A stretch of 64,000 nt of DNA, taken from contig CALWXC010000039.1 in the NCBI GenBank assembly GCA_944385415.1, forward strand, positions 1 to 64,000, given 5' to 3'. The notes under the pieces are model-generated. The model worked only from the letters and a program-made list of their open reading frames with translations. It did not search any database and was not told the DNA's origin. This DNA is from an uncultured Oscillospiraceae bacterium (GTDB taxonomy: Bacteria; Bacillota; Clostridia; Oscillospirales; Oscillospiraceae). Position numbers and translations under genes: made by a program. Shown one piece after another: positions 40,729 through 55,390 of the stretch. Each line of letters starts with the position of its first letter. The first letter of the stretch is position 1.

Positions 40729-41024
40729 TGTTCGTCTATGAGAAAAAGCTTCAATACCCGGTACGTATCGCCCATACCAATCCAGACCTGGCTACCATCA
40801 TATTGACCCAATACGGTGGCCCAGACGGTGAGCTCGGCGCTTCTCTGCGCTATCTGTCCCAACGGTATTCCATGCCCTTCCCAGAGCTGAAAGGTTTGCT
40901 GACCGACATCGGTACAGAAGCATCAAAAAGGGACCCTACAGGCGTCCAGGCTGGGCTTATGCAAAGATACTGTAGCACAAAAAAGCAGTTTATTCAACAT
41001 ATAAGCCCTTATTCCGTAAAGTAG
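40728..41024 (+). CDS. cotJC: cotJC segment 1 of 3 (manganese catalase-like coat protein, interrupted)
   Basis: Residues 1-64 (to 40920) match the N-terminus of CotJC: MFVYEKKLQYPVRI, ILTQYGGPDGELGASLRYLSQRYSMPFPELKGLLTDIGTE. After GTE the frame enters element 1 and continues with 34 unrelated residues to a stop at 41022-41024. The break falls inside the conserved ELGHLE metal-binding motif of the catalase fold. In the unexcised state a truncated 98-residue product would be made. Joining 40920 to 45729 restores the frame. Confidence 0.93.
   Translation: MFVYEKKLQYPVRIAHTNPDLATIILTQYGGPDGELGASLRYLSQRYSMPFPELKGLLTDIGTEASKRDPTGVQAGLMQRYCSTKKQFIQHISPYSVK
40909..40920. repeat. Left attachment core of element 1
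   Basis: TCGGTACAGAAG, identical to 45717-45728. It lies in the codons for I-G-T-E of cotJC. TCAAAAAGGG begins two bases to the right and is one dyad arm of the reconstituted attP; the other arm, CCATTTTGA, is at 45700-45708. Confidence 0.9.
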
Positions 41025-42532
41025 AACACCTGCGTCAAATGCTGTAAACGCAGCTCCATATGACGGTCATTCCAAACAGTCAGCTGCTCCAGAACGGATT
41101 TGCAGAATATGTCGCTCTCTGTTTCCACGCACAGGATGGATTGAAGTTTTACTGTAATCTCTGCTTTTCGCTGCTCCAAGTTTTGCCCAGCTGCTTGCAG
41201 CAGTTGGACCTGTTCCAGCCGCAGTTTCAACTGCTTTAGTTGCTGTGCGTACCGATGCTGTATGATGTTGAGATCCTCCATGGTAATTTGCCCCGAAAAA
41301 CAAGCATCCATAGCGGCCTCTTTTTTGCGTTGAATTTGTGTTATCTCCGCTTCCAATCGCTTCGGGTCTTCTGATAGTTCCTGCTTATCGGCACGAATCC
41401 CTTCCAAGGCCAGCGCTGTTACATGAGCAATTATGGCATCGCGGTCCATGGACAACTGCATCAGAGCAGTGCGCAGCATGTGCATGGCATCATCATCCCG
41501 AACCAACTTTCCCACAGAACAAGCAGCCGAGCCGTCTCTTGCTGCCGTATTGCAGCACCATCGACGCGTTTTTATGCCATCCTTGGTATATCGGAATCTT
41601 CCTACAAACACACCGCCGCATTGGCCGCAGTGGATTTTCCCGGAAAAAATGTATCGGTTAGACTGTCCGCTGCTGCCGGTCTGCTTCCGGTTTTTTGCCA
41701 TTCGCGCCTGGGCCATATTCCAAAGTTCGCGGCCAACTATGGGCGTATGGTGATTTTCTATGCGGATGAACGGTATTTCTCCGGTATTTCTCCGCTTTTC
41801 ATGGGTCAGATAATCCGGTGTATAGGTCTTTTTCTGCACCAAATCTCCCACGTATTTTTCATTTTTTAGAATTTTAAGTACACCATTGGCTGTCCATTTT
41901 TCATTGCCGTGATGTGTCAGATGTCCCTCTCGGGTCAAAATTCGTGCAATTTCTGCTGTGCTGATTTGCTCCACGGCATACAGTTCAAAAATTCGCCGGA
42001 CCAATTCCGCACCGTCTGGCTCTACAGTCAATCTTCCTTGGTGTACGGTATAACCCAACAGAGAATGGCCAAAAACCACACCCTTTTCCATTTGTCGGGT
42101 TTGCCCCCAAGTCACCCGGCTGGAGGTCTTGCGGCTTTCCTCCTGAGCCATGGAGGCCATAATGGATAGATAGAGTTCTGCGTCGGAATCCAACGTACAG
42201 ATTCCATCCAACAAAAAGCGAACGCCGACCCCCAATGCTTTCAGCTCCCGGGTATAGGCGATAGTATCGAGGATATTGCGGGAAAACCGACTGACCTCTT
42301 TGGTCAAAATTAATTGAAATTTCCCGGCGTAAGCATCTTCGATCATTCGATTGAATTGGGTGCGTTTTTTTGTGCTGGTACCAGTGATGCCCTCATCAGC
42401 ATAGACAGCATACAATTCCCAATCAGGGTGGTGCTGGATATAATCTCGAAAATACCGCTGCTGTGATGCAAAAGAGTTGTGCTGGTCTTCCTGATCGGTG
42501 GACACCCGGCAATAACTGGCGACGTAGATCAT
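41009..42532 (-). CDS. Large serine recombinase (element 1)
   Basis: This 507-residue protein has the resolvase catalytic domain with nucleophile Ser11 in YVASYCRVSTD and the SRFSRNILDT active-site helix, a Recombinase domain (about 155-260), a zinc beta-ribbon (CGQCG...CCN...C, about 305-345) and a coiled coil (about 385-470). All parts of an active large serine integrase are present. It reads towards the left attachment site. The ATG at 42532 overlaps the stop of the 71-residue gene (ATGA) and follows AGGAG, which beats the ATG at 42538. It is the obvious candidate for excising element 1. Confidence 0.93.
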   Translation of the reverse strand: MIYVASYCRVSTDQEDQHNSFASQQRYFRDYIQHHPDWELYAVYADEGITGTSTKKRTQFNRMIEDAYAGKFQLILTKEVSRFSRNILDTIAYTRELKALGVGVRFLLDGICTLDSDAELYLSIMASMAQEESRKTSSRVTWGQTRQMEKGVVFGHSLLGYTVHQGRLTVEPDGAELVRRIFELYAVEQISTAEIARILTREGHLTHHGNEKWTANGVLKILKNEKYVGDLVQKKTYTPDYLTHEKRRNTGEIPFIRIENHHTPIVGRELWNMAQARMAKNRKQTGSSGQSNRYIFSGKIHCGQCGGVFVGRFRYTKDGIKTRRWCCNTAARDGSAACSVGKLVRDDDAMHMLRTALMQLSMDRDAIIAHVTALALEGIRADKQELSEDPKRLEAEITQIQRKKEAAMDACFSGQITMEDLNIIQHRYAQQLKQLKLRLEQVQLLQAAGQNLEQRKAEITVKLQSILCVETESDIFCKSVLEQLTVWNDRHMELRLQHLTQVFYFTE

Positions 42533-42744
42533 ACCCATTCTCCTGGCACCGGTCTGGTTGAACTGCGCTGCTGCCGCGCCAAGCGGTCACAGGCCACGCG
42601 GCATTGCATGGCATTGAGCTGTCCTTGCTCTTTTAAGGCCAACAGCAATGCTTTTTTCAGGTGGTATAAAAAGGCCGCATCTGTCTCCGGCGTAATGGGA
42701 TGGTCCTGGAGAATCTGTTCCAGCTTTGCAAATTGTTTGGCCAT
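42529..42744 (-). CDS. Small helical protein coupled to the recombinase
   Basis: This 71-residue basic, mostly helical protein (AKLEQILQDHPITPETDAAFLYHLKKALLLALKEQGQL) is not recognised. It precedes and overlaps the recombinase by four bases, so both are made together. A small protein in this place could be a recombination directionality factor, like SprB for SprA, but there is no sequence proof. AAAGGAGG precedes the start at 42744. Confidence 0.65.
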   Translation of the reverse strand: MAKQFAKLEQILQDHPITPETDAAFLYHLKKALLLALKEQGQLNAMQCRVACDRLARQQRSSTRPVPGEWV

Positions 42745-42791
42745 GTCCCCTGCCTCCTTTCGGTTCAATCTATGCCGCTTAGCCGTCCAAA

Positions 42792-42834
42792 TTGACCGAA
42801 AAGGCTAGCCGATATAGTATGCTATCCTATACTA
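42792..42834. promoter_or_regulatory. Divergent promoter region with dyad in element 1
   Basis: Plus strand: TTGACC (42792-42797) and TAGTAT (42815-42820), 17 bases apart, for the 56-residue membrane proteins. A perfect dyad TAGTAT-N8-ATACTA (42815-42834) covers that -10 box. Minus strand: CATACTATA (42813-42821) matches the CATA-N3-TA -10 pattern of sigma-K and 7 of 8 of sigma-E, 69 bases before the recombinase operon start; no matching -35 is seen. Confidence 0.5.
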
Positions 42835-42914
42835 AAACCACTGATCTTCTTGCAAAAACCGTAAATTGTGTTATGATGTTGACATGAGTATTTCAAGTTC
42901 AGGAGGCGTAACCC

Positions 42915-43085
42915 ATGGAAGAGTCTAAACAACATACAGTCCGCAAAACTGTCAAAACTGGCATATCCTTTGGCAGTGCCCTGGCTATGGTTATTAGCTA
43001 TACCTCGTGGCATTCTGTTGGATGGGCAATTTTCCATGGGCTGCTCAGTTGGGTTTATGTGATCTACTTTGTGCTGAAATACTGA
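42915..43085 (+). CDS. Small membrane protein (56 aa)
   Basis: MEESKQHTVRKTVKTG is followed by a hydrophobic stretch (about 18-52) with SALAMVISYTSWHSVGWAIFH and SWVYVIYFVL, giving one or two membrane helices. A good ribosome-binding site (AGGAGG) and a promoter precede it. It resembles short conserved clostridial proteins of unknown role. It is followed after 27 bases by another 56-residue membrane protein, and the pair forms a small operon inside element 1. Confidence 0.7.
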   Translation: MEESKQHTVRKTVKTGISFGSALAMVISYTSWHSVGWAIFHGLLSWVYVIYFVLKY

Positions 43086-43112
43086 ACTTACCAGCCAGAA
43101 AGGAGCATCTTA

Positions 43113-43283
43113 GTGCGAATTTATTCCACGCTTTTATCTTCTCTTGGCGTCATTGGCGGCGCTGACGGTCCAACTGCTGTCTTTGTAACCGGCCAAAAAG
43201 AACTGATGCTGTTTGTGTTGGCTCTTGTAGGAAGTGCTGTGCTGATTGCGCTGGCGGTTCGGTTTCTGCGCCGTCGAAAATAA
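43113..43283 (+). CDS. Small membrane protein with IGGADGPT motif (56 aa)
   Basis: The product MRIYSTLLSSLGVIGGADGPTAVFVTG... contains GGADGPT, a motif otherwise known from the beta subunit of sodium-pumping oxaloacetate decarboxylase, then one hydrophobic helix (about 31-50) and a basic end RFLRRRK. The start is GTG at 43113 with AAGGAG upstream. It is far too short to be a decarboxylase subunit. Function unknown; a membrane peptide partnering the upstream 56-residue protein is plausible. Confidence 0.7.
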   Translation: MRIYSTLLSSLGVIGGADGPTAVFVTGQKELMLFVLALVGSAVLIALAVRFLRRRK

Positions 43284-43290
43284 CTATAAA

Positions 43291-43325
43291 AACCGGCTCT
43301 GCCATAGGGCAGAGTCGGTTTCCTA
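43291..43325. terminator. Convergent terminator in element 1
   Basis: A 13-bp stem with one G-U pair (43291-43303 with 43308-43320), with T-rich sequence on the minus strand side, serves both the small-protein operon and the alcohol dehydrogenase gene. Confidence 0.8.
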
Positions 43326-43341
43326 TCTATATCATTCTAAA

Positions 43342-44391
43342 TCAGCTGCATTGAATTGCCACTTTGATGACGCCGTCCCGCCGCGCTTCAAACAGTGCAT
43401 AGGCCTGTTCAATTTCAGCCAGTGGGAATTGGTGTGTGATCAGCGGCGTGGTATCCAGCTTACCCTCCGCAATCAGCGACAAGGCTTCCTGACAATGGCA
43501 ACCATCTACTCCACCTGTTTTAAACGTCAGATTTTTGCCGTACATCTCCGGCAATGGCAACATTTGCGGCCCATCATACAAGGCCACTACTGTGACGATG
43601 CCATTGGGGCGAGCAGTTTCCCAAGCCATATGGAACGTATCAGGGCTGCCCGCCACTTCCAGTACCACATCTGCGCCGCCATGTGCGCTGTACTGTCGGA
43701 CTGCCGATGGCAACTCTTCCGGCAATACGGCAATTACATCCGGATAGTGGCGGCGCACAAAGGCCAATCGCTCCACGTCTTTGTCACACACAAGGATACA
43801 ATGAGGATGGCGAAGCCGGACGCATTGCAATGTACAAAGCCCGGTAGGACCTGCGCCCAAGATCAACACCGTATCCTGGGGCTGTATCTCCGAAATCTGT
43901 GCGGCCCAATAGCCGGTGGCCAATACATCGCCCACCAACAAAGCTTGGAGATCCGTTACGCTGTCAGGAATTTTTGTCAACCCCTGATCTGCATAGGGCA
44001 CCCGCACATATTCTGCCTGCCCGCCGTCAATCCGGCAGCCCAGCGCCCAACCGCCGTTGGGGTCCGTACAGTTGTTGACCCAGCCATGCTGGCAGAAAAA
44101 GCAGTGGCCGCAGAACGTCTCTACATTGACTGCCACACGGTCTCCAGGACGGAGCGTGGTTACTGCACTGCCCACCTGCTCTACTATGCCAACCATCTCA
44201 TGACCTACAGTGATACCCGGAACCGCCCGGGGAACAGAACCATGTTTAATGTGCAGATCGCTGGTGCAAATGCTGCTGAGCGTCACCCGCACAATGGCGT
44301 CCCGGTCCTGCTCCAGCACGGGCGTGGGTTTTTGCTGCAATGCAAATTCCCCTTGCCGGATATAGGTATATGTAAGCATTTCATTTTTCAT
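43342..44391 (-). CDS. Zinc-binding alcohol/polyol dehydrogenase (MDR family)
   Basis: This protein of about 349 residues has the catalytic zinc ligands Cys in SSICTSDLHIKHG (about 38-50) and His-Glu in GHEMVGIV (about 61-68), the structural zinc set CGHCFFCQHGWVNNC (about 91-105), and a Rossmann motif VLILGAGPTGLCTLQ (about 169-183). It oxidises an alcohol or polyol with NAD(P); the substrate is unknown. Its 5' end overlaps the KTSC gene by 11 bases. A divergent LysR regulator probably controls it. It is cargo unrelated to element mobility. Confidence 0.9.
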   Translation of the reverse strand: MKNEMLTYTYIRQGEFALQQKPTPVLEQDRDAIVRVTLSSICTSDLHIKHGSVPRAVPGITVGHEMVGIVEQVGSAVTTLRPGDRVAVNVETFCGHCFFCQHGWVNNCTDPNGGWALGCRIDGGQAEYVRVPYADQGLTKIPDSVTDLQALLVGDVLATGYWAAQISEIQPQDTVLILGAGPTGLCTLQCVRLRHPHCILVCDKDVERLAFVRRHYPDVIAVLPEELPSAVRQYSAHGGADVVLEVAGSPDTFHMAWETARPNGIVTVVALYDGPQMLPLPEMYGKNLTFKTGGVDGCHCQEALSLIAEGKLDTTPLITHQFPLAEIEQAYALFEARRDGVIKVAIQCS

Positions 44392-44602
44392 ATCGATACC
44401 GTACCACTCTGTTGATATATGCATTTAATCCATAGCCCTGGGCTGCCAGCTGCTTCATGGTTTCCACATGGCTTTCTCCAGCTGAGGAATAGGAATACCG
44501 ATAGACTCTGGCAGAATTGTGAAATTTGACATCAATATACGTTGGAGCAATTTCAAAGGCTGCCACATCGGAAACACCACTGATATTGCCGTACTGCTGC
44601 AT
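44381..44602 (-). CDS. KTSC domain-containing protein
   Basis: This 73-residue protein matches the KTSC domain: a short beta-rich part (VAAFEIAPTYIDVKFHNSARVYRYS) then a helix ending GYGLNAYINRVV. The domain is named for a conserved residue pattern and occurs in phage, mobile-element and lysyl-tRNA-synthetase-linked proteins; its function is not known. Start at 44602 follows GGGAGTG. It is translated ahead of and coupled to the alcohol dehydrogenase. Confidence 0.8.
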   Translation of the reverse strand: MQQYGNISGVSDVAAFEIAPTYIDVKFHNSARVYRYSYSSAGESHVETMKQLAAQGYGLNAYINRVVRYRYEK

Positions 44603-44643
44603 TCTGATCACTCCCTTTTTTCATCCGGTGGGTTCACACCAAT

Positions 44644-44672
44644 AGTATAGCAGATTCTTCGTGGATTGTAAA
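44644..44672 (-). promoter_or_regulatory. Promoter of KTSC-alcohol dehydrogenase
   Basis: Minus-strand TTTACA (44667-44672) and TATACT (44644-44649) are 17 bases apart. Confidence 0.7.
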
Positions 44673-44711
44673 ACAAAATGAGGTGCGCTTGGAACGGCCG
44701 GTATGTCTATC

Positions 44712-44740
44712 TTGTCAGTCTGGGACAAAGACGGTATACT
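44712..44740 (+). promoter_or_regulatory. Promoter of the LysR gene
   Basis: TTGTCA (44712-44717) and TATACT (44735-44740) are 17 bases apart, 25 bases before the start codon; the divergent spacer is the natural place for a LysR site. Confidence 0.75.
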
Positions 44741-44764
44741 GAAAACGAGAAGGAGGCGATATCC

Positions 44765-45649
44765 ATGGAATTACGGGTTTTACAGTATTTTTTGGCGGTA
44801 GCCCGAGAGCAGAGTATTTCGGCGGCGGCTCAATCGCTGCACCTGACGCAGCCCACCCTTTCCCGGCAGCTCAAGGATTTGGAAGAAACGTTAGGCAAGC
44901 AGTTGATGATTCGAGGCGGCCGTACCATCACTCTGACCGAGGAGGGACTGCATCTTCGGAAGCGGGCGCAGGAAATTCTGGACCTAGTGGGACGAACGGA
45001 AAAGGAGATCATGCAGTCTCCGGAAACCGTCAGTGGCGATATCTATATTGGCACCGGGGAAACCGACGGTGTTCGACAGCTTGCAAGAGCTGCCCGTTGC
45101 CTGCAAGAGCAATATCCGGCGGTACAATTTCATATCGTCAGCGACGACGCCGCAGATGTCTGCGAACAACTAGACAAGGGATTGCTGGATTTTGGCATGC
45201 TCTTGGGCGATATTGATAAAACAAAATATCACTATCTGGAACTTCCCATGCGGGACACCTGGGGGGTTTTAATGCGGCGCGACAGTCCATTAGCGCAAAA
45301 ACCATTTGTTACTCCCGAAGACCTTTGGGATCAACCATTGATTCTGTCCCGTCAAGTGGATAATAAGAGTGGACTGTTTCGGTGGCTGCGGCGAGAACCG
45401 TCGGAACTGCATACCGTTGCCACCTATAATCTGATTTTCAATGCTTCACTGATGGTGGATGAGGGCATGGGGTACGCTTTCGCCTTGGATAAGCTCATCA
45501 ATACTATCGGCAGTAGCCTCTGCTTTCGGCCATTGGAACCCCGTTTGGAACTGGGCATGTATCTGGTTTGGAAGAGGTCCCAACTGTTCTCCAAGCCAGC
45601 GGAATTACTGTTGCAGCAGCTGCAACAACAGCTACACCTGGCAGAGTGA
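44765..45649 (+). CDS. LysR family transcriptional regulator
   Basis: This 294-residue protein has the LysR helix-turn-helix MELRVLQYFLAVAREQSISAAAQSLHLTQPTLSRQLKDLEETLG (1-44) and a substrate-binding domain with the usual two-lobed pattern. The family activates a divergent operon when its inducer binds; here that would be KTSC-alcohol dehydrogenase. Start at 44765 follows AAGGAGG. It is the last gene of element 1, ending 67 bases from the right attachment core. Confidence 0.92.
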   Translation: MELRVLQYFLAVAREQSISAAAQSLHLTQPTLSRQLKDLEETLGKQLMIRGGRTITLTEEGLHLRKRAQEILDLVGRTEKEIMQSPETVSGDIYIGTGETDGVRQLARAARCLQEQYPAVQFHIVSDDAADVCEQLDKGLLDFGMLLGDIDKTKYHYLELPMRDTWGVLMRRDSPLAQKPFVTPEDLWDQPLILSRQVDNKSGLFRWLRREPSELHTVATYNLIFNASLMVDEGMGYAFALDKLINTIGSSLCFRPLEPRLELGMYLVWKRSQLFSKPAELLLQQLQQQLHLAE

Positions 45650-45672
45650 CCCTTAGCTGCATTCTACCAGCA

Positions 45673-45695
45673 ACCATACCATTGAAAAGTATGGT
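45673..45695 (+). terminator. Hairpin at the right end of element 1
   Basis: A 7-bp stem ACCATAC/GTATGGT (45673-45679 with 45689-45695) between the LysR stop and the attachment arm. It may end LysR transcription or be part of the recombination site. Confidence 0.45.
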
Positions 45696-45716
45696 GGTTC
45701 CATTTTGAACCGTTTG

Positions 45717-45728
45717 TCGGTACAGAAG
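45717..45728. repeat. Right attachment core of element 1
   Basis: TCGGTACAGAAG, identical to 40909-40920. To its right cotJC resumes in the codons for E-L-G-H-L-E. Confidence 0.9.
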
Positions 45729-46096
45729 AACTGGGACACCTGGAGATGATTGGCACTATCGTCCATCAACTGACTCGTAATCTCACAGAGGAACAGATCA
45801 AATCCAAGGGCTTTGCCCCCTATTTTGTGGACCATACTGCCGCCGTCTACCCTGCCGCAGCCTCTGGCACTCCCTGGAGCGCTGCCGGCATGCAGTGCAG
45901 TGGCGACCCTATTGCCGATTTGTCGGAAGATATGGCAGCAGAGCAGAAAGCCCGGAAAACCTATGACAATATTCTGCGGCTGTCCGATGATCCCGATGTG
46001 AACGACGCTATCAAGTTCCTGCGGGAGCGGGAAATTGTTCACTTCCAGCGCTTCGGCGAAGCGAACCATACGAAGTTAAGTAAGCGATTGCCATGA
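45729..46096 (+). CDS. cotJC: cotJC segment 2 of 3 (manganese catalase-like, interrupted at both ends)
   Basis: From 45729 to 46064 the sequence encodes the middle of CotJC: ELGHLEMIGTIVHQLTRNL, FVDHTAAVYPAAASGTPWS, DLSEDMAAEQKARKTYDNILRLSDDPDVNDAIKFLREREIVHFQRFGEA. It contains the expected metal ligands of the Mn-catalase fold (Glu/His in the first motif, Glu in AAEQKAR, Glu/His in REREIVHF). It has no start codon of its own at the segment start; the first in-frame ATG is 45746. After GEA it enters element 2 and stops at 46094-46096 after ten unrelated residues. No frameshift or nonsense codon is present within it. Confidence 0.93.
46058..46064. repeat. Left attachment core of element 2
   Basis: GAAGCGA, repeated at 55316-55322; TTCGG just before it is also shared. 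TTAAGT at 46076-46081 is one dyad arm of the reconstituted attP; its partner ACTTAA is at 55295-55300. Confidence 0.8.
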
Positions 46097-46113
46097 AAAT
46101 TTTGGCATTGGTC

Positions 46114-46141
46114 TTGCACATTACTGATTTTGCGATATAAT
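46114..46141 (+). promoter_or_regulatory. Promoter of the SprA-related gene
   Basis: TTGCAC (46114-46119) and TATAAT (46136-46141) are 16 bases apart. Confidence 0.7.
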
Positions 46142-46205
46142 GAAACTACAAAAAGAACAGACACAGCAGGCGAAAGTCTGCTGGCCCCGAAAGGAGGTGC
46201 AGAAT

Positions 46206-46865
46206 ATGCTTGGTCTATATGGAGTTGGTTGGGGTGCGTCCAGTGCCTATTGGGGAAGGACTGCCGCAGCTGGACAGACCACCGTTGTGTCCCGTGCACA
46301 GCCTCGCGCCACAGATCAGCCGGTTACCCCGGTGACACCCGCCCCTGCTGTAAGCCGGGACCAGCCCAGCGCCGTTACATTGACGGGTGCGGCAGCTGTC
46401 TCCAATTACCGGGAAGGCGCCGACCCTGTTGAGATGGCGGTACGCGGCCGCATCCAATATCTCAGCGAAGAAGAACTGAATGCGGAAGTGGAACAGTCTA
46501 AATCTGCCCAGGAGATCATGAAGGAAAGCGAGTGCCAGACCTGCAAGGAGCGGAAATATCAGGACGGCTCCAACGATCCGGGAGTCTCCTTCAAGACGCC
46601 CACCAACGTGGCACCGGAGCAGGCGGCGGCAGCCGTGCGGGGCCATGAGCAGGAGCATGTGGTTCGGGAACAGGACAAGGCCCAACGGGAGGATCGGGAG
46701 GTTGTCTCTCAATCGGTGACCTATCACACGGCCATTTGTCCGGAGTGCGGCAAGGTTTACGTGTCCGGTGGTACCACCCGTACCAGCACCCGTGCGGCCC
46801 AGGAGCAGCCAGCTCAAGATCCCACTAATCAGGGGAAACAAACCCCATTCTTTGCTGTAGCATAA
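46206..46865 (+). CDS. SprA-related family putative metalloprotease
   Basis: This 219-residue protein has CQTCKERKYQDGSNDPGVSFKTPT (about 115-138), then AAAAVRGHEQEHVVREQDKA (HExEH-like zinc motif near 147-153) and a second CPECG pair. That order is the SprA-related family, predicted zinc peptidases of unknown role, often chromosomal in Firmicutes and Proteobacteria. The N-terminal 70 residues are low-complexity (PVTPVTPAPAV). Start at 46206 follows AAAGGAGG. It is the first gene inside the left end of element 2. Confidence 0.85.
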   Translation: MLGLYGVGWGASSAYWGRTAAAGQTTVVSRAQPRATDQPVTPVTPAPAVSRDQPSAVTLTGAAAVSNYREGADPVEMAVRGRIQYLSEEELNAEVEQSKSAQEIMKESECQTCKERKYQDGSNDPGVSFKTPTNVAPEQAAAAVRGHEQEHVVREQDKAQREDREVVSQSVTYHTAICPECGKVYVSGGTTRTSTRAAQEQPAQDPTNQGKQTPFFAVA

Positions 46866-46871
46866 AACAAT

Positions 46872-46898
46872 AGCCCAGGGAGATATGCTCCTTGGGCT
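46872..46898 (+). terminator. Terminator after the SprA-related gene
   Basis: An 11-bp stem with one G-U pair (46872-46882 with 46888-46898), tail CTCGTTTT. Confidence 0.75.
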
Positions 46899-46918
46899 CT
46901 CGTTTTGCGCAGGCAAAC

Positions 46919-46950
46919 GTAGTCCAGAGGGCAAACGCTCTCTGGACTAC
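46919..46950. terminator. Second hairpin in the convergent spacer
   Basis: An 11-bp perfect stem (46919-46929 with 46940-46950) with an eight-base loop; no clear T-tail. Confidence 0.45.
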
Positions 46951-47003
46951 GTCAGCTAATACATGAAATTTCCTCTCCTCAAGTGTGGAGATATATCCCT
47001 TTA

Positions 47004-47525
47004 TTATGCCCAAGCAGAAAACGGCTCTTTTACATAAAAGTTGTAATCTTCCATGGTAAAGTCGGCGGGCAGCCCCACCAAATGAGCTTCACCTGTCTGG
47101 ATATGGCTTTTGTTAATTTGCAGCCATACCGCAAACATTTCCGGGTCATTTTGCCGTTTATCCTCCACCCATTTCTGACCTTCTTCTTTCAGAAATGTCA
47201 GCCGGTCACCAAAGGAGAGATTCTTCCTGTCCGCTTCCTCTAGGCTCCATTGCAGGTGATCGTTAAAACTTTCCATTGTTTCACCCATAATGGTCCATGC
47301 CCTTGGAATCTCACAGGTAATTTCATCAGACACATCCAATGTGACTTGGCTCTGCTCCTGTGACAGTTCCAGTTTGTCGTACCGAGAGGTCTGTTCCGTG
47401 GCTTGTGTGTCTTGGGAAATTGTCTGCAAGCAGGTTCCGTCGGAAAGCCGGTTGGAGGCAGTAAACTTCGTATAGGATTGTATGGCGCCAGCATAGGCGT
47501 CAGTTACAATATTCAGCATTTGCAT
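47004..47525 (-). CDS. Hypothetical protein, unknown
   Basis: This 173-residue soluble, acidic protein is not recognised. It starts MQMLNIVTDAYAGAIQSY, has a SRYDKLELSQEQ stretch near residue 50 and is otherwise helical, with Trp-rich spots. It has no signal peptide. It follows a 432-residue unknown protein that has a comparable RDRVELSGS motif near its N-terminus, and the 32-base gap suggests one operon. The shared xDxxELS motif hints at a common partner or export mode. Confidence 0.6.
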   Translation of the reverse strand: MQMLNIVTDAYAGAIQSYTKFTASNRLSDGTCLQTISQDTQATEQTSRYDKLELSQEQSQVTLDVSDEITCEIPRAWTIMGETMESFNDHLQWSLEEADRKNLSFGDRLTFLKEEGQKWVEDKRQNDPEMFAVWLQINKSHIQTGEAHLVGLPADFTMEDYNFYVKEPFSAWA

Positions 47526-47557
47526 TCACATCCTTACATTTTACTTCTTTTCCAGTG

Positions 47558-48856
47558 TCATTTCGCCATGGAAAATGCCAGATATACATCCTCACGGTTG
47601 ATATACTCGGTCCGAATCAAACCGGCTTGCCAAGGGTTTTGGGCAACCCGATCCCGGTTGTGGTCGATCTTTGCATCCAGTGCATCCAGGTATTTTCCAA
47701 TAAACGGCTCAAAGGAATTCTTCAACAGATCAGAAAGTTGCGTGCTGATACCTGCTTTCTCCATGTGCTCCGTCAGGGATTGGTATTGCTGGGCAAGATA
47801 AATACCCAGATCAGTGTCGCTCTCCTTCGTTTCATAGGTGTCCCACTCCGGCTTTTTAACCTGATTTGAAAGGTCCTTGGCATAGGAGGCTACAAATGCC
47901 AGATCATCGGCGCTGTATGGAGCGGAATCATTGACAGTCTGGACAGAAGACGATTCCACCGGCGATGCAGCGGCACTTTCCCGCAATTTGGCTGCCATAT
48001 AGCCGTCATCCTGCTTTAGCCATTGCTTGCTGGGATCGGTGATGTCCGCATAAATGTCGTTTTCCGCAAGGTATGCGCTGTATTGCTCCGCCTTGCCATC
48101 GATGGCCGCCAGAACACTCTCCCGCATATCCCCAGAGGCTCCTGCTTGTCCCAGTTCCTCATAAAACCCGCCGATGTTGGCAGCATAGGAATCTGCCAGT
48201 TCCTCCTTGGCCTTAGTGTACAAATCGTCCAGCGTCTGCATTTCCTGTTCCAGCTTATCCCCAGTGTACTGGGTTTGAATGCGGTCCTTCAACACCGCAT
48301 AGCGAGAGGCCAGATAGTCCACCTTTGTTTCAAAACGCTGTGCATTGTCGAAACGCAGGTCCATATTCAAGAAATCCTCCTGCACGCCCCGCCAGTCGAT
48401 TTCCTCTCCCAGCCCGTTTTCCTCCAGCTGGGCCCGGAATGCATCCAGGCTCTCCTGGCTGACCTGACCTTCTGTCATCAGCTTTACCGGTTTGGAGGGA
48501 TCCAGTTCAAAAGAATCCCCAATTTTGACAAAGTCCAGACGGTACTGCTTCATGTACTGATTCATCAGTGCATCTTCTTCGGTGTACTGTTCCTTCTCCG
48601 AAGCAGGGCGAAGATCTGCCGCCAAATCCAGTTTGGCATTGACCGGCGTAGCTTCCGGCACTTCCAGCACTTGCATCCGATTGGGCAGATAAGGATACGA
48701 GCCGCTCAGCTCTACCCGATCCCGATTTGTATTATTCGTCCTTGCCTGGGTCTGGGAACGGACCGCAGACCCGATCTGACTGCTCTGATGGAAGCCCATC
48801 TGGTTACTCCAGGCTGTTTTGAACCAAGGGTTTGTACCTATTTGACCGATATACAT
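47558..48856 (-). CDS. Hypothetical protein, unknown (432 aa)
   Basis: This 432-residue acidic, largely helical protein is not recognised. It begins MYIGQIGTNPWFKTAW, has RDRVELSGSYPYLPNRMQ near residue 45-62 and a long helical body with many Asp/Glu/Gln, ending LAFSMAK. There is no signal peptide or membrane helix. The start is three bases from the end of the preceding gene. It may be secreted or surface-located by a non-classical path, but nothing proves this. Confidence 0.6.
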   Translation of the reverse strand: MYIGQIGTNPWFKTAWSNQMGFHQSSQIGSAVRSQTQARTNNTNRDRVELSGSYPYLPNRMQVLEVPEATPVNAKLDLAADLRPASEKEQYTEEDALMNQYMKQYRLDFVKIGDSFELDPSKPVKLMTEGQVSQESLDAFRAQLEENGLGEEIDWRGVQEDFLNMDLRFDNAQRFETKVDYLASRYAVLKDRIQTQYTGDKLEQEMQTLDDLYTKAKEELADSYAANIGGFYEELGQAGASGDMRESVLAAIDGKAEQYSAYLAENDIYADITDPSKQWLKQDDGYMAAKLRESAAASPVESSSVQTVNDSAPYSADDLAFVASYAKDLSNQVKKPEWDTYETKESDTDLGIYLAQQYQSLTEHMEKAGISTQLSDLLKNSFEPFIGKYLDALDAKIDHNRDRVAQNPWQAGLIRTEYINREDVYLAFSMAK

Positions 48857-48859
48857 GGT

Positions 48860-49297
48860 TTATGCCTCCCGCAGAATGCCTTGCATCCACTGATCTTTAT
48901 ATAGTATTATCGGCCAAATAATGGAAAAGTTAAGATTCATCCGTGATGCGAGAATTTTAATGGGGCTGCTGCAAAATTTTGCAACAGCCCCATACGTGCT
49001 ATCATCGGCCATGGGGCCTTCCACGATATCGTAATCATGAGGCTTCCCCAACCGGCAGGCAACGATAAAATCCAACCACTCCTCCGACATCTCCGGAAAC
49101 TGCTTGATTTTCAGGCTGTCATCTAGCGTATAGCAATACTCATTCAAATATCCAACCCCATCAAAACGGATGGCCCAGCGAATGGCCTGTTCCGGGAACA
49201 GCGTGCAGTAAAAGCCAAAATAGAAATCCTTATTGTACTTTTGAATCCGGATTTCCGGAGACTCCACGATGGTTTTGCTTCTGCGATATAGGATCAT
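48860..49297 (-). pseudogene. C-terminally truncated DUF3990 protein gene
   Basis: The first 100 residues match DUF3990: MILYRRSKTIVESPEIRIQKYNKDFYFGFYCTLFPEQAIRWA...DFIVACRLGKPHDYDIVEGPMADD. DUF3990 proteins are ADP-ribosyltransferase-like. After MADD the expected IFNYVQNF... C-terminal part is missing and the frame runs through a terminator-like hairpin (48962-48992) into unrelated residues. It is therefore probably non-functional or strongly altered; the break may mark an old deletion. Confidence 0.7.
48962..48992. terminator. Terminator-like hairpin inside the DUF3990 remnant
   Basis: A 14-bp near-perfect stem GGGGCTG-x-TGCAAAA/TTTTGCA-x-CAGCCCC. It is unusual inside a reading frame and supports that the frame downstream is not genuine coding sequence. 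Confidence 0.6.
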
Positions 49298-49373
49298 GTC
49301 TTATCCTCCCGCATGTGGCCGTCTGTGCCTAAATTGTAGCCCACGAACCTATTTTCTGTCAAGATGAATGGCA

Positions 49374-49420
49374 GCAGTCAAAAAACAAACCGTCGGGGCC
49401 TGAATGCCCTGACGGTTTGC
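49374..49420 (-). terminator. Terminator of the element 2 recombinase
   Basis: A stem with CAAACCGTC/GACGGTTTG arms (49386-49394 with 49411-49419) plus an inner GGC/GCC, followed on the minus strand by TTTTTTGAC. It abuts the recombinase stop codon. Confidence 0.85.
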
Positions 49421-50946
49421 TATAGGTTCCAGATGATCTGTATGCTGCCATCTTTCCGGATCAGGATCTTATGTATCACAATCATGGCAACGGCCTTCTT
49501 TCGCTGGTAGTCAGCGGTTTGCCAGGAGTTTGCCAGATTGATCACAACATCCGTTTCCTCTTTCCGGCTGCTTAACTCCTCCATCCGTGCATACAGAGTC
49601 AGACGGTCCTGCTTGAGCTGCGTTGCCTTCTGGTTGGCAATGGTCAGAAGCGCATCATTGAATCCACCGGTCAGCATCGTGTCCAGCAACTGCTTTTCCT
49701 GCTGCTCGATCGCCTTGATCTTCAGCTTCAGATCATTGATTTCCCCACGTTCCACGTTTCGGCTGTGATGCCCGGTTTGCTTCAGATCTGCCAGTTTTTC
49801 CGCAATGCACTCGTCAACCATATTCTCCAGATCCTCCGCATAGACCGAACCCTGTGGGCCGGGACAGATCTTCTTATGAGATTTGCCAGTACAGTTGAAG
49901 TACCGCCGTACCTCACCGGATTGCGTGGGCTTTCCCTTGATGGTGGTCATGGTATGTCCGCACTGCTCGCATATCACTTTCCCAGCCAGCCAGCTGGTGG
50001 GGTTGCTGTAGCTGTTGGTGATTTGTCGGTTCTTCTCCAGCTTTCTCTGGCATTTGAGCCAGATATCGGAACCCACCAGACCGGGATGGGTCAGCAACAC
50101 CAGCTTCATGTCCGACCAGTCGGAATTGGCAGAATCGTGCTTGGTGTGGCCGTACAGCTGGGCCCCATACTCCCCGGTGAACAGAGAGAGGTCTGTGGTA
50201 ATCTGTGTTCCATGCCTGTCGTAATAGTCGTAAATATCAGAATCGGCTCTGACGTAGATGGGATTTCTCAGCAGCGTGGAAAGCTTTGCTGTGGTCCAGT
50301 GGCTTTCGTTCACTGGCTGCTTGCCCTCCGCAATCAGAAGATCCTGTAATCTCCTCAGCGACATAGTTTCCTGCGCATAGACTTCGAAGATATATCGCAC
50401 CTGCTCGGCCTCGGCAGGAATGGGATTGAGCTTTTTTGTTTTGACATTGTGGATGATGGCAGGCACCAATTCAAATCCATACGGTCTGCGGCCTCCCATA
50501 TAGAAACCCATCTCGCTGCGGTGCGCATAGGCCTGGGTAACACGATTGATAATGGAAGTCCGCTCAAATTCCGCAAATACCATCAGGATCTTAACAATCA
50601 GTTCCCCATAGGGAGAAGAGGTGTCAAATGATTCCTGAGAGGATACAAACTCCACTTTATGTTCCTTGAATTCTTGCAGGATATTCATAAAGTCAGACAG
50701 AGAGCGGCTGATTCGGTCCAGCTTATAGACGATGACCTTGCTGACTTTCCCCTGGCGGACTAGCTTCATCATATTCTGAAAGCCATCTCGATTGATATTA
50801 CCGCCAGAAAAGCCATTGTCTACAAAAATCTCGACCTTTTCGCCCCGTTCCTCGGGTTTCATCATCATTTTGCAGTATTCAATCTGCGTCTCACAGCTGA
50901 TGCTGTTTTCCCGCTCTACTGATTTGCGTGCATACAGAACGATCAT
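49420..50946 (-). CDS. Large serine recombinase (element 2)
   Basis: This 508-residue protein has the catalytic domain with nucleophile Ser9 in MIVLYARKSVE and YKLDRISRSLSDF, a Recombinase domain (about 160-270), a zinc ribbon (CEQCG...FNC...C, about 330-375) and a coiled coil (about 400-460). It is clearly different in sequence from the element 1 enzyme. The ATG at 50946 follows GGAGGTG. All active-site parts look intact. It lies in the middle of element 2 rather than near an end, which is unusual and could mean element 2 is composite. Confidence 0.93.
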   Translation of the reverse strand: MIVLYARKSVERENSISCETQIEYCKMMMKPEERGEKVEIFVDNGFSGGNINRDGFQNMMKLVRQGKVSKVIVYKLDRISRSLSDFMNILQEFKEHKVEFVSSQESFDTSSPYGELIVKILMVFAEFERTSIINRVTQAYAHRSEMGFYMGGRRPYGFELVPAIIHNVKTKKLNPIPAEAEQVRYIFEVYAQETMSLRRLQDLLIAEGKQPVNESHWTTAKLSTLLRNPIYVRADSDIYDYYDRHGTQITTDLSLFTGEYGAQLYGHTKHDSANSDWSDMKLVLLTHPGLVGSDIWLKCQRKLEKNRQITNSYSNPTSWLAGKVICEQCGHTMTTIKGKPTQSGEVRRYFNCTGKSHKKICPGPQGSVYAEDLENMVDECIAEKLADLKQTGHHSRNVERGEINDLKLKIKAIEQQEKQLLDTMLTGGFNDALLTIANQKATQLKQDRLTLYARMEELSSRKEETDVVINLANSWQTADYQRKKAVAMIVIHKILIRKDGSIQIIWNL

Positions 50947-50984
50947 ATAGGACACCTCCTCTCCTGCTCATAGAATGATTTTGC

Positions 50985-51137
50985 TCAGGCCGGCATTTTT
51001 GTTCCCTTGGCCAATACGTGGGTCAGTTCCTCCATCATCTTCTCCTTATGGATCTGATCTTCCTGGGGAAGTGTAATATGCTCCACCCGATGCCTGACTG
51101 ATTTGACATCAGTATACTCTTCCAGCAGCTTTGCCAT
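50985..51137 (-). CDS. Small basic/acidic helical protein (50 aa) upstream of the recombinase
   Basis: MAKLLEEYTDVKSVRHRVEH...LTHVLAKGTKMPA, 50 residues, no membrane helix, not recognised. AGGAGGTG stands six bases before the ATG. It lies between a 235-residue unknown gene and the recombinase, in one leftward operon. Like the 71-residue gene of element 1 it is a candidate accessory or directionality protein; no motif proves it. Confidence 0.65.
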   Translation of the reverse strand: MAKLLEEYTDVKSVRHRVEHITLPQEDQIHKEKMMEELTHVLAKGTKMPA

Positions 51138-51148
51138 CTCAACACCTC

Positions 51149-51856
51149 CTAAATTGCCCCGCACAGAGGGGTGTGGTTGGAATCAAGATCGACTCCGTCC
51201 GTTACCACAATATGCGTAAAATCACAGCATATTTCATGGTTAAGCAAGGTTAAAATGCCCTGTTTTGTGTAAGGAAAGAAACAACTGATCAGCATAGGTG
51301 GCATGACCTGATGTTCCTGTCGTCTGTACTGCCGGTCGTAGTAACAACACTGTTTGACAACTCCTTGTCCCTCCTTGTAGTAGGCCAATTCTACATAGAT
51401 TGACCGATGGAGCTTATTTTTCAGACGTGTGCGTAACCGAATCGGCAGGTCATTGTGACGCTCCCCTTCTCCTACCATAATCAGAAAGCGGTATTTGCGG
51501 TTTTTCTGCTCTGCTTTTTTCTGGATATAGGCATCCATCGGCAAGCCGGTGTTTTCATCCAAGGTATATATGACGCCATAGAATTTTTTGTCCAGCTCAG
51601 CTTCAATGACTGATAGCAGCTGTTCCGCCGAAAATTGGATGGTTCGGAGCATTTTAGGTCTGGCACTATACCGTGCAGGCCCCGCCCGTCCCTGATTGCG
51701 ATCCAGATAGAAGCAGTCCTGTATGGTACAGTATGAATCGTGGAGTTGCACGGACAGGAAAACTACTCTGCCATGACGAGTTTTAAAGATTGTCCGAAAT
51801 TGATCATCGTTTCCGCTACTGTGATCCAATTGCATGGTTAAAATACTTTTCTGCAT
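51149..51856 (-). CDS. Hypothetical protein of element 2 (235 aa)
   Basis: This 235-residue basic soluble protein is not recognised. It starts MQKSILTMQLDHSSGNDDQFRTIFK and has several Tyr-rich segments (VELAYYKEGQGVVKQCCYYDRQYRR) and a beta-rich feel. No catalytic motif is evident. The chosen ATG at 51856 follows GAGGTG. It ends 11 bases before the 50-residue gene, so it is likely in the same operon as the recombinase. Confidence 0.65.
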   Translation of the reverse strand: MQKSILTMQLDHSSGNDDQFRTIFKTRHGRVVFLSVQLHDSYCTIQDCFYLDRNQGRAGPARYSARPKMLRTIQFSAEQLLSVIEAELDKKFYGVIYTLDENTGLPMDAYIQKKAEQKNRKYRFLIMVGEGERHNDLPIRLRTRLKNKLHRSIYVELAYYKEGQGVVKQCCYYDRQYRRQEHQVMPPMLISCFFPYTKQGILTLLNHEICCDFTHIVVTDGVDLDSNHTPLCGAI

Positions 51857-51919
51857 GATACTCACCTCACAAAGAGGATATATATCCGTTTTGTGGGATG
51901 ATTCGGCCGCTGCCGATCA

Positions 51920-52333
51920 TTATTCCAGCAAAGCATCGTTGTCCTCATGAATGACCAAACCATCCTTGCAGTTCCGCGCACGGAATCTTGCTGCGATATC
52001 CTCCTCAGAAAAACCGCAGGCAAGCAAATGTGCAAGTATCTTCTGCGGCAGCTCCTCCATAGAGGCAATCAGGACCGTTCTGGGGAGATTCCCAAGTGGC
52101 TCTGACACGATCCCCGCCTGGCAGAGCTCTTTCATAATATCCCTCGCCCGATTTCCCATGAAAAATTGGGATTTAAGGCCACTGATTGTAAGCCTATCCC
52201 GCCCCAGCGCCCATATGACTACCTCTGCAAACTCTTTCTGTTCCTTTGTAATCACTTGTCTTTTCAGCATCCCATCCGATGCAGCTGCTCCCTCAGGCTC
52301 CGCTTCCGTACATACCTCTGGTATGATATTCAT
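51920..52333 (-). CDS. FtsK-gamma-like winged-helix protein
   Basis: This 137-residue protein contains, at about 30-95, QKEFAEVVIWALGRDRLTISGLKSQFFMGNRARDIMKELCQAGIVSE...PRTVLIASMEEL, matching the FtsK gamma DNA-binding winged helix (the KOPS-reading domain) but without any motor domain. The C-terminus adds a small helical extension. It may bind DNA at element or host sites. Its start is uncertain: the ATG at 52333 overlaps the previous gene by 41 bases, and an internal ATG at 52270 is possible. Confidence 0.7.
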   Translation of the reverse strand: MNIIPEVCTEAEPEGAAASDGMLKRQVITKEQKEFAEVVIWALGRDRLTISGLKSQFFMGNRARDIMKELCQAGIVSEPLGNLPRTVLIASMEELPQKILAHLLACGFSEEDIAARFRARNCKDGLVIHEDNDALLE

Positions 52334-52676
52334 GCAAATCTTCTTCTGTTTCTGTCGCTTTCCTGCGCTTGGTCAATACACTCTCAATAAATTTGATCGT
52401 ATATCCTCCAGCTCTTGCGATTTTCGCACGCTCTCGACGCTCTGGAGTCTGACTGACCAGATCCGCAATATAGTCCGGACGATACAGTCTCATCGGACAT
52501 TCAATCTTATCGCCACGGAAATACTTGAATAACTTCAGCATGGCATCCCGTCCAATCAGCCCATAGAGCTCCAGATAACTGTCATTCAGCGCTTCTGACT
52601 CGTTTCCTTCCACACGAAACGCCTCATAAACACCTTCCTCATTCAAATTATCCAGATCAATCGTCATAGTAGTCAC
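52293..52676 (-). CDS. Mor/phage-regulator-like DNA-binding protein
   Basis: This 127-residue protein has an acidic N-terminal part (IDLDNLNEEGVYEAFRVEG) and a C-terminal part with LKLFKYFRGDKIECPMRLYRPDYIADLVSQTPERRERAKIARAGGYTIKFIESVLTKRRK, resembling middle-operon (Mor) regulators of phage type. The GTG at 52676 is used because GGGGAGGTG stands just upstream; ATG at 52667 is the alternative. It would regulate element 2 genes. Family match moderate. Confidence 0.6.
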   Translation of the reverse strand: MTTMTIDLDNLNEEGVYEAFRVEGNESEALNDSYLELYGLIGRDAMLKLFKYFRGDKIECPMRLYRPDYIADLVSQTPERRERAKIARAGGYTIKFIESVLTKRRKATETEEDLHEYHTRGMYGSGA

Positions 52677-52712
52677 ATTAGCACCTCCCCTGCTACATCC
52701 TGAAATACACCA

Positions 52713-52742
52713 ATTATAGCGGTTGCTGCATTCGTATATCAA
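52713..52742 (-). promoter_or_regulatory. Promoter of the Mor-like/FtsK-gamma/recombinase operon
   Basis: Minus-strand TTGATA (52737-52742) and TATAAT (52713-52718) are 18 bases apart. Confidence 0.65.
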
Positions 52743-52981
52743 ATCATGTCAGGGAACGTTTTTATCCCCTTTTTTGGCTCCTTTTTAGGAACCTTATAAC
52801 GGTGCTTTTTATTCCTTAGCTTGACACATGACGTACACATACTTGTGACCTCCAAATAAAAGGATAACCCAGAGAGCAAGAGCTCCCTGGGCTTCGTAGT
52901 TATAATATACAGATTAAGATGAGGCAGATTCGGATCAGAACGCTTTTGATTGATCAGTGCGGCATAACCCCTCATAACCCC
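52743..52981. other. Divergent spacer in element 2
   Basis: No gene seen. A hairpin with CCCAG...CTGGG arms lies at 52868-52891. The rest shows no clear structure. Confidence 0.35.
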
Positions 52982-53010
52982 TTGAACCTGAGACAATGAT
53001 GGGGTATAAT
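52982..53010 (+). promoter_or_regulatory. Promoter of the AAA ATPase gene
   Basis: TTGAAC (52982-52987) and TATAAT (53005-53010) are 17 bases apart. Confidence 0.75.
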
Positions 53011-53031
53011 AAAAACAACAGGAGGTGCAAC

Positions 53032-54843
53032 ATGGACGAGCGAAAGAGACAGGAAATGATTCTGGAATTAGAGCGACAGATTGCAGATCTGCCGATTGGG
53101 TATATCTCAAAGAAAACGATCAATGGCAAGGTTCAATACTATCACCAGTGGACAGAGAACGGAAAAAAGCGCAGCCAATACCTTCGAAATGGAGAAATGG
53201 AACCACTGCGGGAACAGATCGAACAGCGCAAGATCCTGCAAGCGCAGTTGAAAGAGTTGCGTTCTGGAATGCCAAAAGTACGTCAGCCTAATCTGAATTT
53301 TGAAACCAATGTGATCGTTGGGACGGGATTGGAGGCCATGTCACAGGGGGTCAAAAACTGGGGCCTCCGTGACTGCTTTGACCAGATGGAAGGATATCTC
53401 TATGGGAAGGAGTATGACCGGGTTTGTCTAGTCTTTGGTCTGCGCCGAACCGGTAAGACCACCATGATTCGTCAGGCAATTGGCAGAATGACAAAAGAGA
53501 ATTTGAGCCGTGCTGCCTACATCAAAGCCCGCAAAGGTGACAACATGGCGATGATGAACCGGGATCTCAAGAAGCTGTTCGATGCCGGATTCCGATATGT
53601 GTTCATTGATGAAGTCACTTTAATGGAGGATTTTATTGACTCGGCGGCACTCTTTTCTGATGTATTTGCTACCATGGGAATGAAAATTGTCCTCTCAGGA
53701 ACCGATTCTCTTGGTTTCTGGCTGGCAATGGATCAGGAATTGTATGATCGGGCAAAGCCCATCCATACGACCTTTATCCCGTACCGTGAATACAGCCGCT
53801 TGCTTGGAATTAACAGTATCGACGAGTATATTCGTTACGGTGGTACACTGCGTGCAGGTGAGCTAGCCTTCGATGACCAAGATGTGAATGCTCAGGATGC
53901 GTCCTTTCGGGATGATGAATCCACCCGAAGATACATTGACACAGCAATTTGCAGAAACATCCAACATTCTCTTGCCTGCTATGAAGCGGGCGGTCACTTC
54001 CGACACCTGCACTCTCTGTATGAGGCTGGAGAACTGACCAGTGCCATCAACCGAATCATTGAAGATATGAACCATCGGTTTTTAATCTCTGTGTTGACAG
54101 ATGATTTTCGCTCACATGATCTACGGCTCACTGCCGCGAATCTTCGGAAAGAGCGGAATCCTGAAAAGCGCACGGATGTATTGGACCATATTGATACCCA
54201 AGCTGTTACTCAACGCTTGATGGAGCTACTGGATATTCGTAACAAAGAAGAGCAATCCATCGGCATCACATCGTCCCACATCACAGAAATCAAACAGTAT
54301 CTCTCCGCATTGGAGTTAATTGTAGACTGCCCCATCGAAACCGCCGAGCCTGGAACGAAGCCATTGGAACACATTCTCTTCACACAGCCTGGGATGCGGT
54401 ACTGTCAGGCACAGGCGCTCGTACACGCACTGCTAAAGGACCCGCAGTTCTCAGCACTCAGCGAATATGAAAAAACTCAGGTTACAGATCGCATTCTCGA
54501 AGAAGTTCGTGGCCGGATGATGGAAGATATTGTACTCCTGGAAACCATGAAGGCAGCCGACAAGAATCACCGTGTTTTCAAATTGCAATTTGAGGCCGGC
54601 GAATTTGATATGGTCATCTATGATCAAAAAGAAAACTGCTGTGAGATTTTTGAAATCAAACACAGCAGTGAACAGGTCCCCCTTCAATACAGGCATCTCA
54701 TTGACGAGGACAAATGCCGGAGAACAGAACGGCGGTTTGGTCCAATCCAGAGGCGATATGTCCTCTATCGAGGTGAGGATATTCAATTGGAAAACGGGGT
54801 GCAGTATCGAAACGTAGAAGCATTCTTGAAAGGACTTCGATAA
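53032..54843 (+). CDS. AAA family ATPase with C-terminal DUF4143-like/nuclease-like domain
   Basis: This 603-residue protein has an N-terminal coiled segment, a P-loop GLRRTGKTTMIRQA (Walker A, about 135-148), a Walker B RYVFIDEVTLMEDF (about 184-197), sensor-like VLSGTDSLGF, and a C-terminal region with FDMVIYDQKENCCEIFEIKHS (about 535-555), like the PD-(D/E)xK-type pattern of AAA_14/DUF4143 proteins. These are widespread, mobile ATPases of unclear function, sometimes linked to toxin-antitoxin or defence. It has its own promoter and a clear Shine-Dalgarno (GGAGGTG). It is the rightmost intact gene of element 2. Confidence 0.85.
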   Translation: MDERKRQEMILELERQIADLPIGYISKKTINGKVQYYHQWTENGKKRSQYLRNGEMEPLREQIEQRKILQAQLKELRSGMPKVRQPNLNFETNVIVGTGLEAMSQGVKNWGLRDCFDQMEGYLYGKEYDRVCLVFGLRRTGKTTMIRQAIGRMTKENLSRAAYIKARKGDNMAMMNRDLKKLFDAGFRYVFIDEVTLMEDFIDSAALFSDVFATMGMKIVLSGTDSLGFWLAMDQELYDRAKPIHTTFIPYREYSRLLGINSIDEYIRYGGTLRAGELAFDDQDVNAQDASFRDDESTRRYIDTAICRNIQHSLACYEAGGHFRHLHSLYEAGELTSAINRIIEDMNHRFLISVLTDDFRSHDLRLTAANLRKERNPEKRTDVLDHIDTQAVTQRLMELLDIRNKEEQSIGITSSHITEIKQYLSALELIVDCPIETAEPGTKPLEHILFTQPGMRYCQAQALVHALLKDPQFSALSEYEKTQVTDRILEEVRGRMMEDIVLLETMKAADKNHRVFKLQFEAGEFDMVIYDQKENCCEIFEIKHSSEQVPLQYRHLIDEDKCRRTERRFGPIQRRYVLYRGEDIQLENGVQYRNVEAFLKGLR

Positions 54844-55315
54844 GCTGCGCATGGCATGTACCTCCGTTGTAGTCCAGCACATCTGTGAAGCCTCAGTCCA
54901 TCTGGTAGGCCTCGCCAGGCGCTGTGATGTAACGGCACCCTCGGTTTCCTTGGGGTGCGACCTATTGCTGCTTGGCCGGGATGAGATGCTCTGCTCCTGG
55001 CACCAGACCGCCGCCATTCTGGAGGCCGGAGAGATCTCTCAGGAGGACTATAACCGCTGGCGTTACCACTATCCCGAATTTGATACATCCCAAAATCAAG
55101 ATAGGGCTCAGCAGCAATGGCTTTGGCAATAGCATCATTTTTGCCACAATGATCATGCTTCAATTTTTGAGTTTTCCAGTTTTATCCTTTATAATAATTC
55201 TATATGGGCCTTTACGCTACCAAGGTAGCCGTGTGGGGGGATTCCTGTGCGATTTTTAATGAGTTAGGAAGGTATTAAAAATAAAGTACCCTCTACTTAA
55301 ATTGCCCGTTTCGGT
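54844..55315 (+). other. Decayed right end of element 2
   Basis: No intact gene is credible. A 94-residue frame (54851-55132) ends in ILEAGEISQEDYNRWRYHYPEFD, which looks like a genuine C-terminal fragment of a small protein of unknown family, without an own start signal. The last 180 bases are AT-rich and lead into the attachment arm ACTTAA (55295-55300). Confidence 0.45.
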
Positions 55316-55322
55316 GAAGCGA
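55316..55322. repeat. Right attachment core of element 2
   Basis: GAAGCGA, identical to 46058-46064, followed by the last codons of cotJC. Confidence 0.8.
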
Positions 55323-55390
55323 TGCAGCTGCTCCGGGAAAAGCTGGACCAGAAAAACATTTATTTTATGAACCCTGCCATCGATTTATAA
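55323..55390 (+). CDS. cotJC: cotJC segment 3 of 3 (C-terminal codons)
   Basis: After the core the frame reads (E-A-)MQLLREKLDQKNIYFMNPAIDL-stop. This is the expected CotJC C-terminus, which in other clostridia reads ...EALRxVQExLDSKNxYxFNPSFD. It has no start of its own and is followed six bases later by a strong terminator, as befits the true end of the cotJ operon. Joined to segments 1 and 2 it gives 199 codons (193 + 336 + 68 bases) in one frame, 198 residues. Confidence 0.9.

Follow-up and report, generated by a model that had tools for sequence, protein, structure and literature searches.

The window analysed here, 64,000 nucleotides at positions 1 to 64,000 of contig CALWXC010000039.1 from an uncultured Oscillospiraceae bacterium, carries the spore-coat gene cotJC in three pieces separated by two inserted elements. 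This raises the question of whether the gene is still in use and, if so, how it is made whole. We focus on the second insertion, element 2, which probably is a skin-like, sporulation-excised island with its own serine integrase, seated at one fixed codon of cotJC.

Borders of element 2 and the cotJC frame

Element 2 extends over 46058–55315 (9,258 bp from crossover to crossover), as defined by its core repeats, by empty sites and by identical borders in relatives. It is bounded by TTCGGCGAAGCGA (46052–46064) and TTCGGTGAAGCGA (55310–55322), which differ at one base, with the core GAAGCGA present as a left copy (attL, 46058–46064) and a right copy (attR, 55316–55322). The earlier note had placed these cores inside a 13-base match with one difference, which we confirmed to the base. 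Its further claim, that core and recombinase are distinct from those of element 1, also holds, the cores comparing as TCGGTACAGAAG versus TTCGGYGAAGCGA and the two large serine recombinases (LSRs) being 23% identical.

We computed the uninterrupted gene by removing 46065–55322, together with element 1 at its own core TCGGTACAGAAG (40909–40920 and 45717–45728), and obtained 198 codons in one open frame. Segment 1 (40728–40920, plus strand) encodes amino acids 1–64 and the element-1 core, and covers positions 1–65 of the PF05067 model, with an identical protein in the sister species G006. Segment 2 (45729–46064, plus strand; model positions 62–193) runs up to RFGEA, and segment 3 (55323–55390, plus strand; MQLLREKLDQKNIYFMNPAIDL and the stop codon) is defined by the healed frame and by uninterrupted relatives. 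All of the pieces are open. Joining the host ends of element 2 gives CGC TTC GGC GAA GCG ATG CAG CTG, or RFGEA-MQLLREKLDQKN, which is the healed frame that the earlier note had read across this junction.

Empty sites in the same genus agree with the computed join. The cotJC gene is whole in G003 and G005, and amino acids 26–198 lie on one contig in G004; all three align to the healed prediction without gaps and read RFGEA-(M/L)QLLREKL. The earlier note had expected the RFGEA-MQLL join in an empty-site gene, and the reading is RFGEAMQLLREKLDQKN in G004 and G005 and RFGEALQLLREKL in G003.

The element-2 recombinase (49420–50955, minus strand) has 511 amino acids, with Resolvase, Recombinase and zinc-ribbon domains, and belongs to a clade aimed at this one codon. 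Of the 80 best loci from a genome-wide scan with 16 aligned LSR relatives, 49, by our own count, flank cotJC at the element-2 codon. Two groups occur at this site: D1, the window type, with LSRs 52–80% identical and attP arms TTACTTAA...TTAAGTAA or close variants, and D2, with LSRs 35–40% identical and attP arms TCCATCTTGTACGCTT...AAGCGTACAAGATGGA. Hosts of the clade include Oscillospiraceae, Lachnospiraceae, Butyricicoccaceae and Acutalibacteraceae, and the complete chromosome of Anaerocolumna sp. MB42-C2 has a related LSR at this position in cotJC. Among cultivated strains, Acetatifactor muris DSM 23669 likewise has an LSR of the family adjoining cotJC. The sister species G006 has both insertions, its element-2 recombinase being 97% identical and its cargo different. 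In G193, which belongs to a different genus, a recombinase of 70% identity occupies the exact element-2 codon; element 1 is absent there, and the cotJC N-terminus is on a separate contig.

The attachment sites follow the layout of large serine integrases, with inverted attP arms around a non-palindromic crossover dinucleotide. The arms of element 2, AAGTTAAGT (46073–46081) and ACTTAAATT (55295–55303), stand at fixed positions kept in D1 elements, and the D2 arms, though their sequence is another, are fixed as well. In the joined circle, ACTTAA and TTAAGT are separated by 33 bases and centred on A46059, as the earlier note had described. A centred dyad as good arose in 62 of 5000 flank shuffles (1.2%), so that on its own it is only moderately unlikely and comparison with relatives is needed to decide; there, the dyad recurs at the same fixed spacing. 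The left and right copies share GA in both D1 and D2, and the flanking bases may differ on either side: before GA in L075, and after it in G193, L068 and L074. With GA common to both copies and differences on both sides, the crossover is placed at the dyad centre, which narrows it from the seven-base core to the inferred dinucleotide GA at 46058–46059 and 55316–55317.

We then compared the host genome (G000) with G006. Across cotJC segments 1 and 2 there are about 44 synonymous changes and no amino-acid changes (synonymous divergence, dS, 0.45; non-synonymous to synonymous ratio, dN/dS, about 0.006), so the exons are under extreme purifying selection though interrupted. Host neighbours have dS values of 0.45–0.67 and most element-1 cargo 0.43–0.54 (element-1 LSR, 0.86). 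Since the divergence of element 1 resembles that of the host genes, it was probably in place before the two species split, cotJC being conserved while interrupted. The lower values of element-2 genes (0.09–0.36) indicate that element 2 moved or was exchanged later. Element 1 itself, of 4,808 bp, occupies 40909–45728 including both copies of its 12-bp core; it encodes its own LSR (41009–42538, minus strand; LSR domains) and, as cargo, an alcohol-dehydrogenase-like gene and a LysR-type regulator, with dS equal to that of host genes, as in an old and vertically kept insertion.

These data bear on two alternatives. That cotJC is dead in this lineage, its pieces being decaying remnants, would suit a gene in three pieces with no intact second copy found in the genome, where PF05067 matches the two larger fragments and nothing else. 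We regard this as highly improbable: all pieces are open and the two compared pieces show no amino-acid change at a dS of 0.45, so the selection test refutes it unless the insertions are very recent, and element 1 is not. An assembly artefact might be suspected in a genome of 43 contigs, yet the same two insertions occur in G006, cotJC is also split in the single-contig genomes G103 and G369, and the Anaerocolumna chromosome with its related LSR is complete; this alternative, the least probable of all, is refuted for practical purposes.

A putative control module in element 2

A small open reading frame (ORF) of 50 amino acids (MAKLLEEYTDVK...; 50985–51137, minus strand), below the usual ORF size cut-off, ends 30 bp before the LSR. 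It is present in 21 of the 24 D1 elements examined, aligns well across them, and has an invariant YTD, H and EL. Its place, size and linkage make it a candidate directionality factor. The smallest site-D element, of 4.0 kb in L075, keeps both this ORF and the LSR. An apparent RelBE-type toxin-antitoxin pair, judged by eye, also lies in that locus (L075:11712–12255).

Upstream of the small ORF is a block, GAAATATGCTGTGATTTTACGCATATTGT (51207–51235, minus strand, read from 51235 to 51207), that is conserved across D1 elements. C. difficile sigma-E promoters have an ATA −35 and a CATA-type −10 element (PMC3789822), and the D1 block fits this type, making it a putative promoter that sigma-E may read. 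We searched within 400 bp of each LSR for the pattern ATA-N14-17-CATANNNT and found it at 19 of 24 D1 loci (1.0 expected) and 29 of 36 D2 loci (1.8 expected), counts that are not independent events because the loci within each group are related. A first control set of 21 related LSRs without a cotJC fragment found nearby gave one match; as this set was partly near-clonal, we used a more diverse set of 51 LSR loci not adjoining cotJC, where two matched. The blocks of D1 and D2 are different in sequence; this suggests that they were either gained separately or diverged strongly under one shared constraint. The motif occurs in 2 of 13 recombinases from the other cotJC sites; the aligned upstream DNA of these recombinases lacks a clear block, so the signal is not general for them.

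Two further observations concern motifs of this kind. A GTAAC-containing stretch just 3′ of the D1 −10 element (window positions ~51206–51195, minus strand) resembles the C. difficile SpoIIID box KRTAACARK, with a full match by eye in L069, and SpoIIID input is possible. In a Butyricicoccus metagenome-assembled genome (L124), an LSR (at 10001) has a sigma-E-like motif ~320 bp upstream, and its locus yielded no cotJC fragment; this may be another sporulation target.

A 238-amino-acid ORF of unknown function (51149–51865, minus strand), kept in many but not all D1 elements, lies upstream of the module, and its 3′ end overlaps the promoter block. Its conserved C-terminus at first suggested a short directionality-factor domain, a reading that we dropped since the conservation is mainly that of promoter DNA: loci that have lost the ORF (L068, L080 and L086) retain the block, and the similar motif of L085 is situated beyond the 3′ end of the intact ORF.

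Insertions in cotJC across the family

The insertion described in the earlier note is part of a larger pattern, with many cotJC insertions across gut Clostridia. PF05067 is matched in 318 of the 400 family genomes surveyed, and in 109 of these 318 cotJC is broken at discrete model positions: site A (~28–33) in 32 genomes, site B (~61–66, that of element 1) in 60, site C (~147–152) in 25, and a minor site near 50 in four. Some breaks coincide with contig ends, and 24 genomes have two. Site D (~188–193, that of element 2) is used in at least 12 genomes; D-only insertions were left out of the count because their PF05067 match looks nearly whole. The control gene spoIVA, present in the host genome, is partial in 7 of 329 cases (~2%, our own count from the table) in the same 400 genomes. 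Two partial or weaker spoIVA matches occur in G052, G170, G211, G321 and G337, where that gene may be interrupted. In a maximum-likelihood tree, the LSRs of sites A, B, C and D1 form one group each (support 100/94 or better), and those of D2 require three label changes.

Around its recombinase, element 2 carries cargo that includes a 241-amino-acid protein with an HEQEH motif (46140–46865, plus strand) and a 615-amino-acid AAA_14 ATPase (52996–54843, plus strand; Pfam). In the window, the HEQEH gene is within element 2, at its left end; in G193, a homologue with 56% identity (L052:17649–18296) is found immediately beyond the right end of the element. A PHROGs scan of eight element-2 ORFs found no phage structural genes, matching only the integrase and, weakly, two regulator-like ORFs. 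The nearest phage integrases listed are below 30% identical to the LSR, and the attP-like and promoter-block patterns have no exact match in viral contigs. With no phage structural or replication genes among the ORFs scanned, element 2 is a genomic island or integrative element rather than a prophage.

This island-like content is also what would be expected if cotJC were merely a conserved docking site for an ordinary integrative element that excises for transfer and not for sporulation, in a host that does without cotJC or relies on rare excision. The 28.7-kb site-D element of G193 (L040 and L052; G193:C112) would fit such a life, with a VirD4-like coupling protein beside Lamassu LmuB, an OLD-family nuclease, a type IV restriction-like helicase and YqaJ, as would the lateral exchange of element 2 suggested by its dS values. 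The targets published for other LSRs are housekeeping genes (PMC10083194). Several of our results also count against excision timed to sporulation: the genome's own assembly contains no circle junction and no healed junction; neither sequence nor fold reveals a recognisable relative of the 50-amino-acid protein (AlphaFold model of two short strands and a helix, mean predicted local distance difference test score, pLDDT, 80; no significant match in a fold search); the motif is missing by our pattern in 5 of the 24 D1 loci, with a weaker motif elsewhere in G193; and the spacing after ATA is 15, slightly under the 16–18 called classical in PMC3789822. A docking site alone does not, however, account for the extreme purifying selection on the interrupted exons, for sigma-E-type blocks that two divergent groups share at this site and other LSRs rarely have, or for insertions being so strongly concentrated in this spore-coat gene relative to spoIVA, and we consider it unlikely, though the most credible of the alternatives.

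We therefore favour a sporulation-timed island. In the proposed sequence of events, the sigma-E-type promoter inside element 2 would drive the 50-amino-acid candidate directionality factor and the LSR during sporulation, and recombination of attL with attR at GA would release a 9,258-bp circle carrying attP. An independent excision of element 1 would complete the repair, giving the mother cell the whole 198-codon cotJC, while the forespore would retain the interrupted gene. C. difficile cotJC homologues are members of the sigma-K regulon (PMC3789822).

More broadly, and with some reserve, we lean towards cotJC being a family-wide hub for such islands. It would offer at least four fixed attB sites, each with its own recombinase lineage, in about one-third of the Oscillospiraceae species that have a matching gene, and in Lachnospiraceae as well, with two divergent lineages at the element-2 site each having its own sigma-E-type promoter. 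The islands, some with anti-phage defence, would stay in the germline and leave the terminal mother cell, two elements calling for two independent excisions. If so, programmed excision in sporulation genes, so far seen as scattered single cases, would become a recurrent and predictable feature of gut spore-formers centred on cotJC; dozens of natural sets of LSR, attachment sites and directionality factor would be aimed at a few sites; and it could be tested whether mobile elements gain by timing excision to a cell without descendants. Annotators should then bear in mind that a cotJC gene recorded as 'truncated' is in many cases probably intact in the mother cell.

Comparison with known systems

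Known interrupted sporulation genes are sigK, spsM, spoVFB, spoVR, gerE and yabG (PMC4191935, PMC5595907, PMC5025042, PMC10747680). We found no description of an interrupted cotJC in the open-access full-text literature, where a subscription paper could exist, and the main text of the LSR survey of Durrant et al. does not mention cotJ (PMC10083194). Newly reported here are the conserved 50-amino-acid ORF, the sigma-E-type motif, the cotJC hotspot and the purifying selection on interrupted exons.

The closest likeness is to skin in sigK of B. subtilis and C. difficile. Element 2 likewise lies inside the coding sequence of a mother-cell sporulation gene, carries its own LSR, and has a short core whose joining restores the frame exactly. 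In C. difficile, the skin directionality factor is controlled by sigma-E and SpoIIID (PMC5025042). Element 2 differs in that its host gene encodes a coat enzyme and not a sigma factor, two elements share one gene, its LSR is not of the skin lineage by the tests made, and the small ORF apparently shares an operon with the LSR.

SPbeta in spsM, vfbin in spoVFB, vrin in spoVR and yin in yabG also interrupt sporulation genes that are restored by excision (PMC4191935, PMC10747680), as predicted for element 2, but these are prophages or prophage-like, whereas the element-2 ORFs scanned include no phage structural gene. The non-phage element gin in gerE of B. cereus shares a serine recombinase, a short core and a small extra factor, GirX (PMC5595907); it is 28.6 kb with three recombinases, compared with 9.3 kb and one LSR for element 2, and occupies a different gene in a different host group. 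Finally, the site-specific LSR families of Durrant et al. (PMC10083194) likewise show diverse LSRs converging on one gene, whereas cotJC presents at least four sites within a single gene, served by separate LSR clades and accompanied by sporulation-type promoters.

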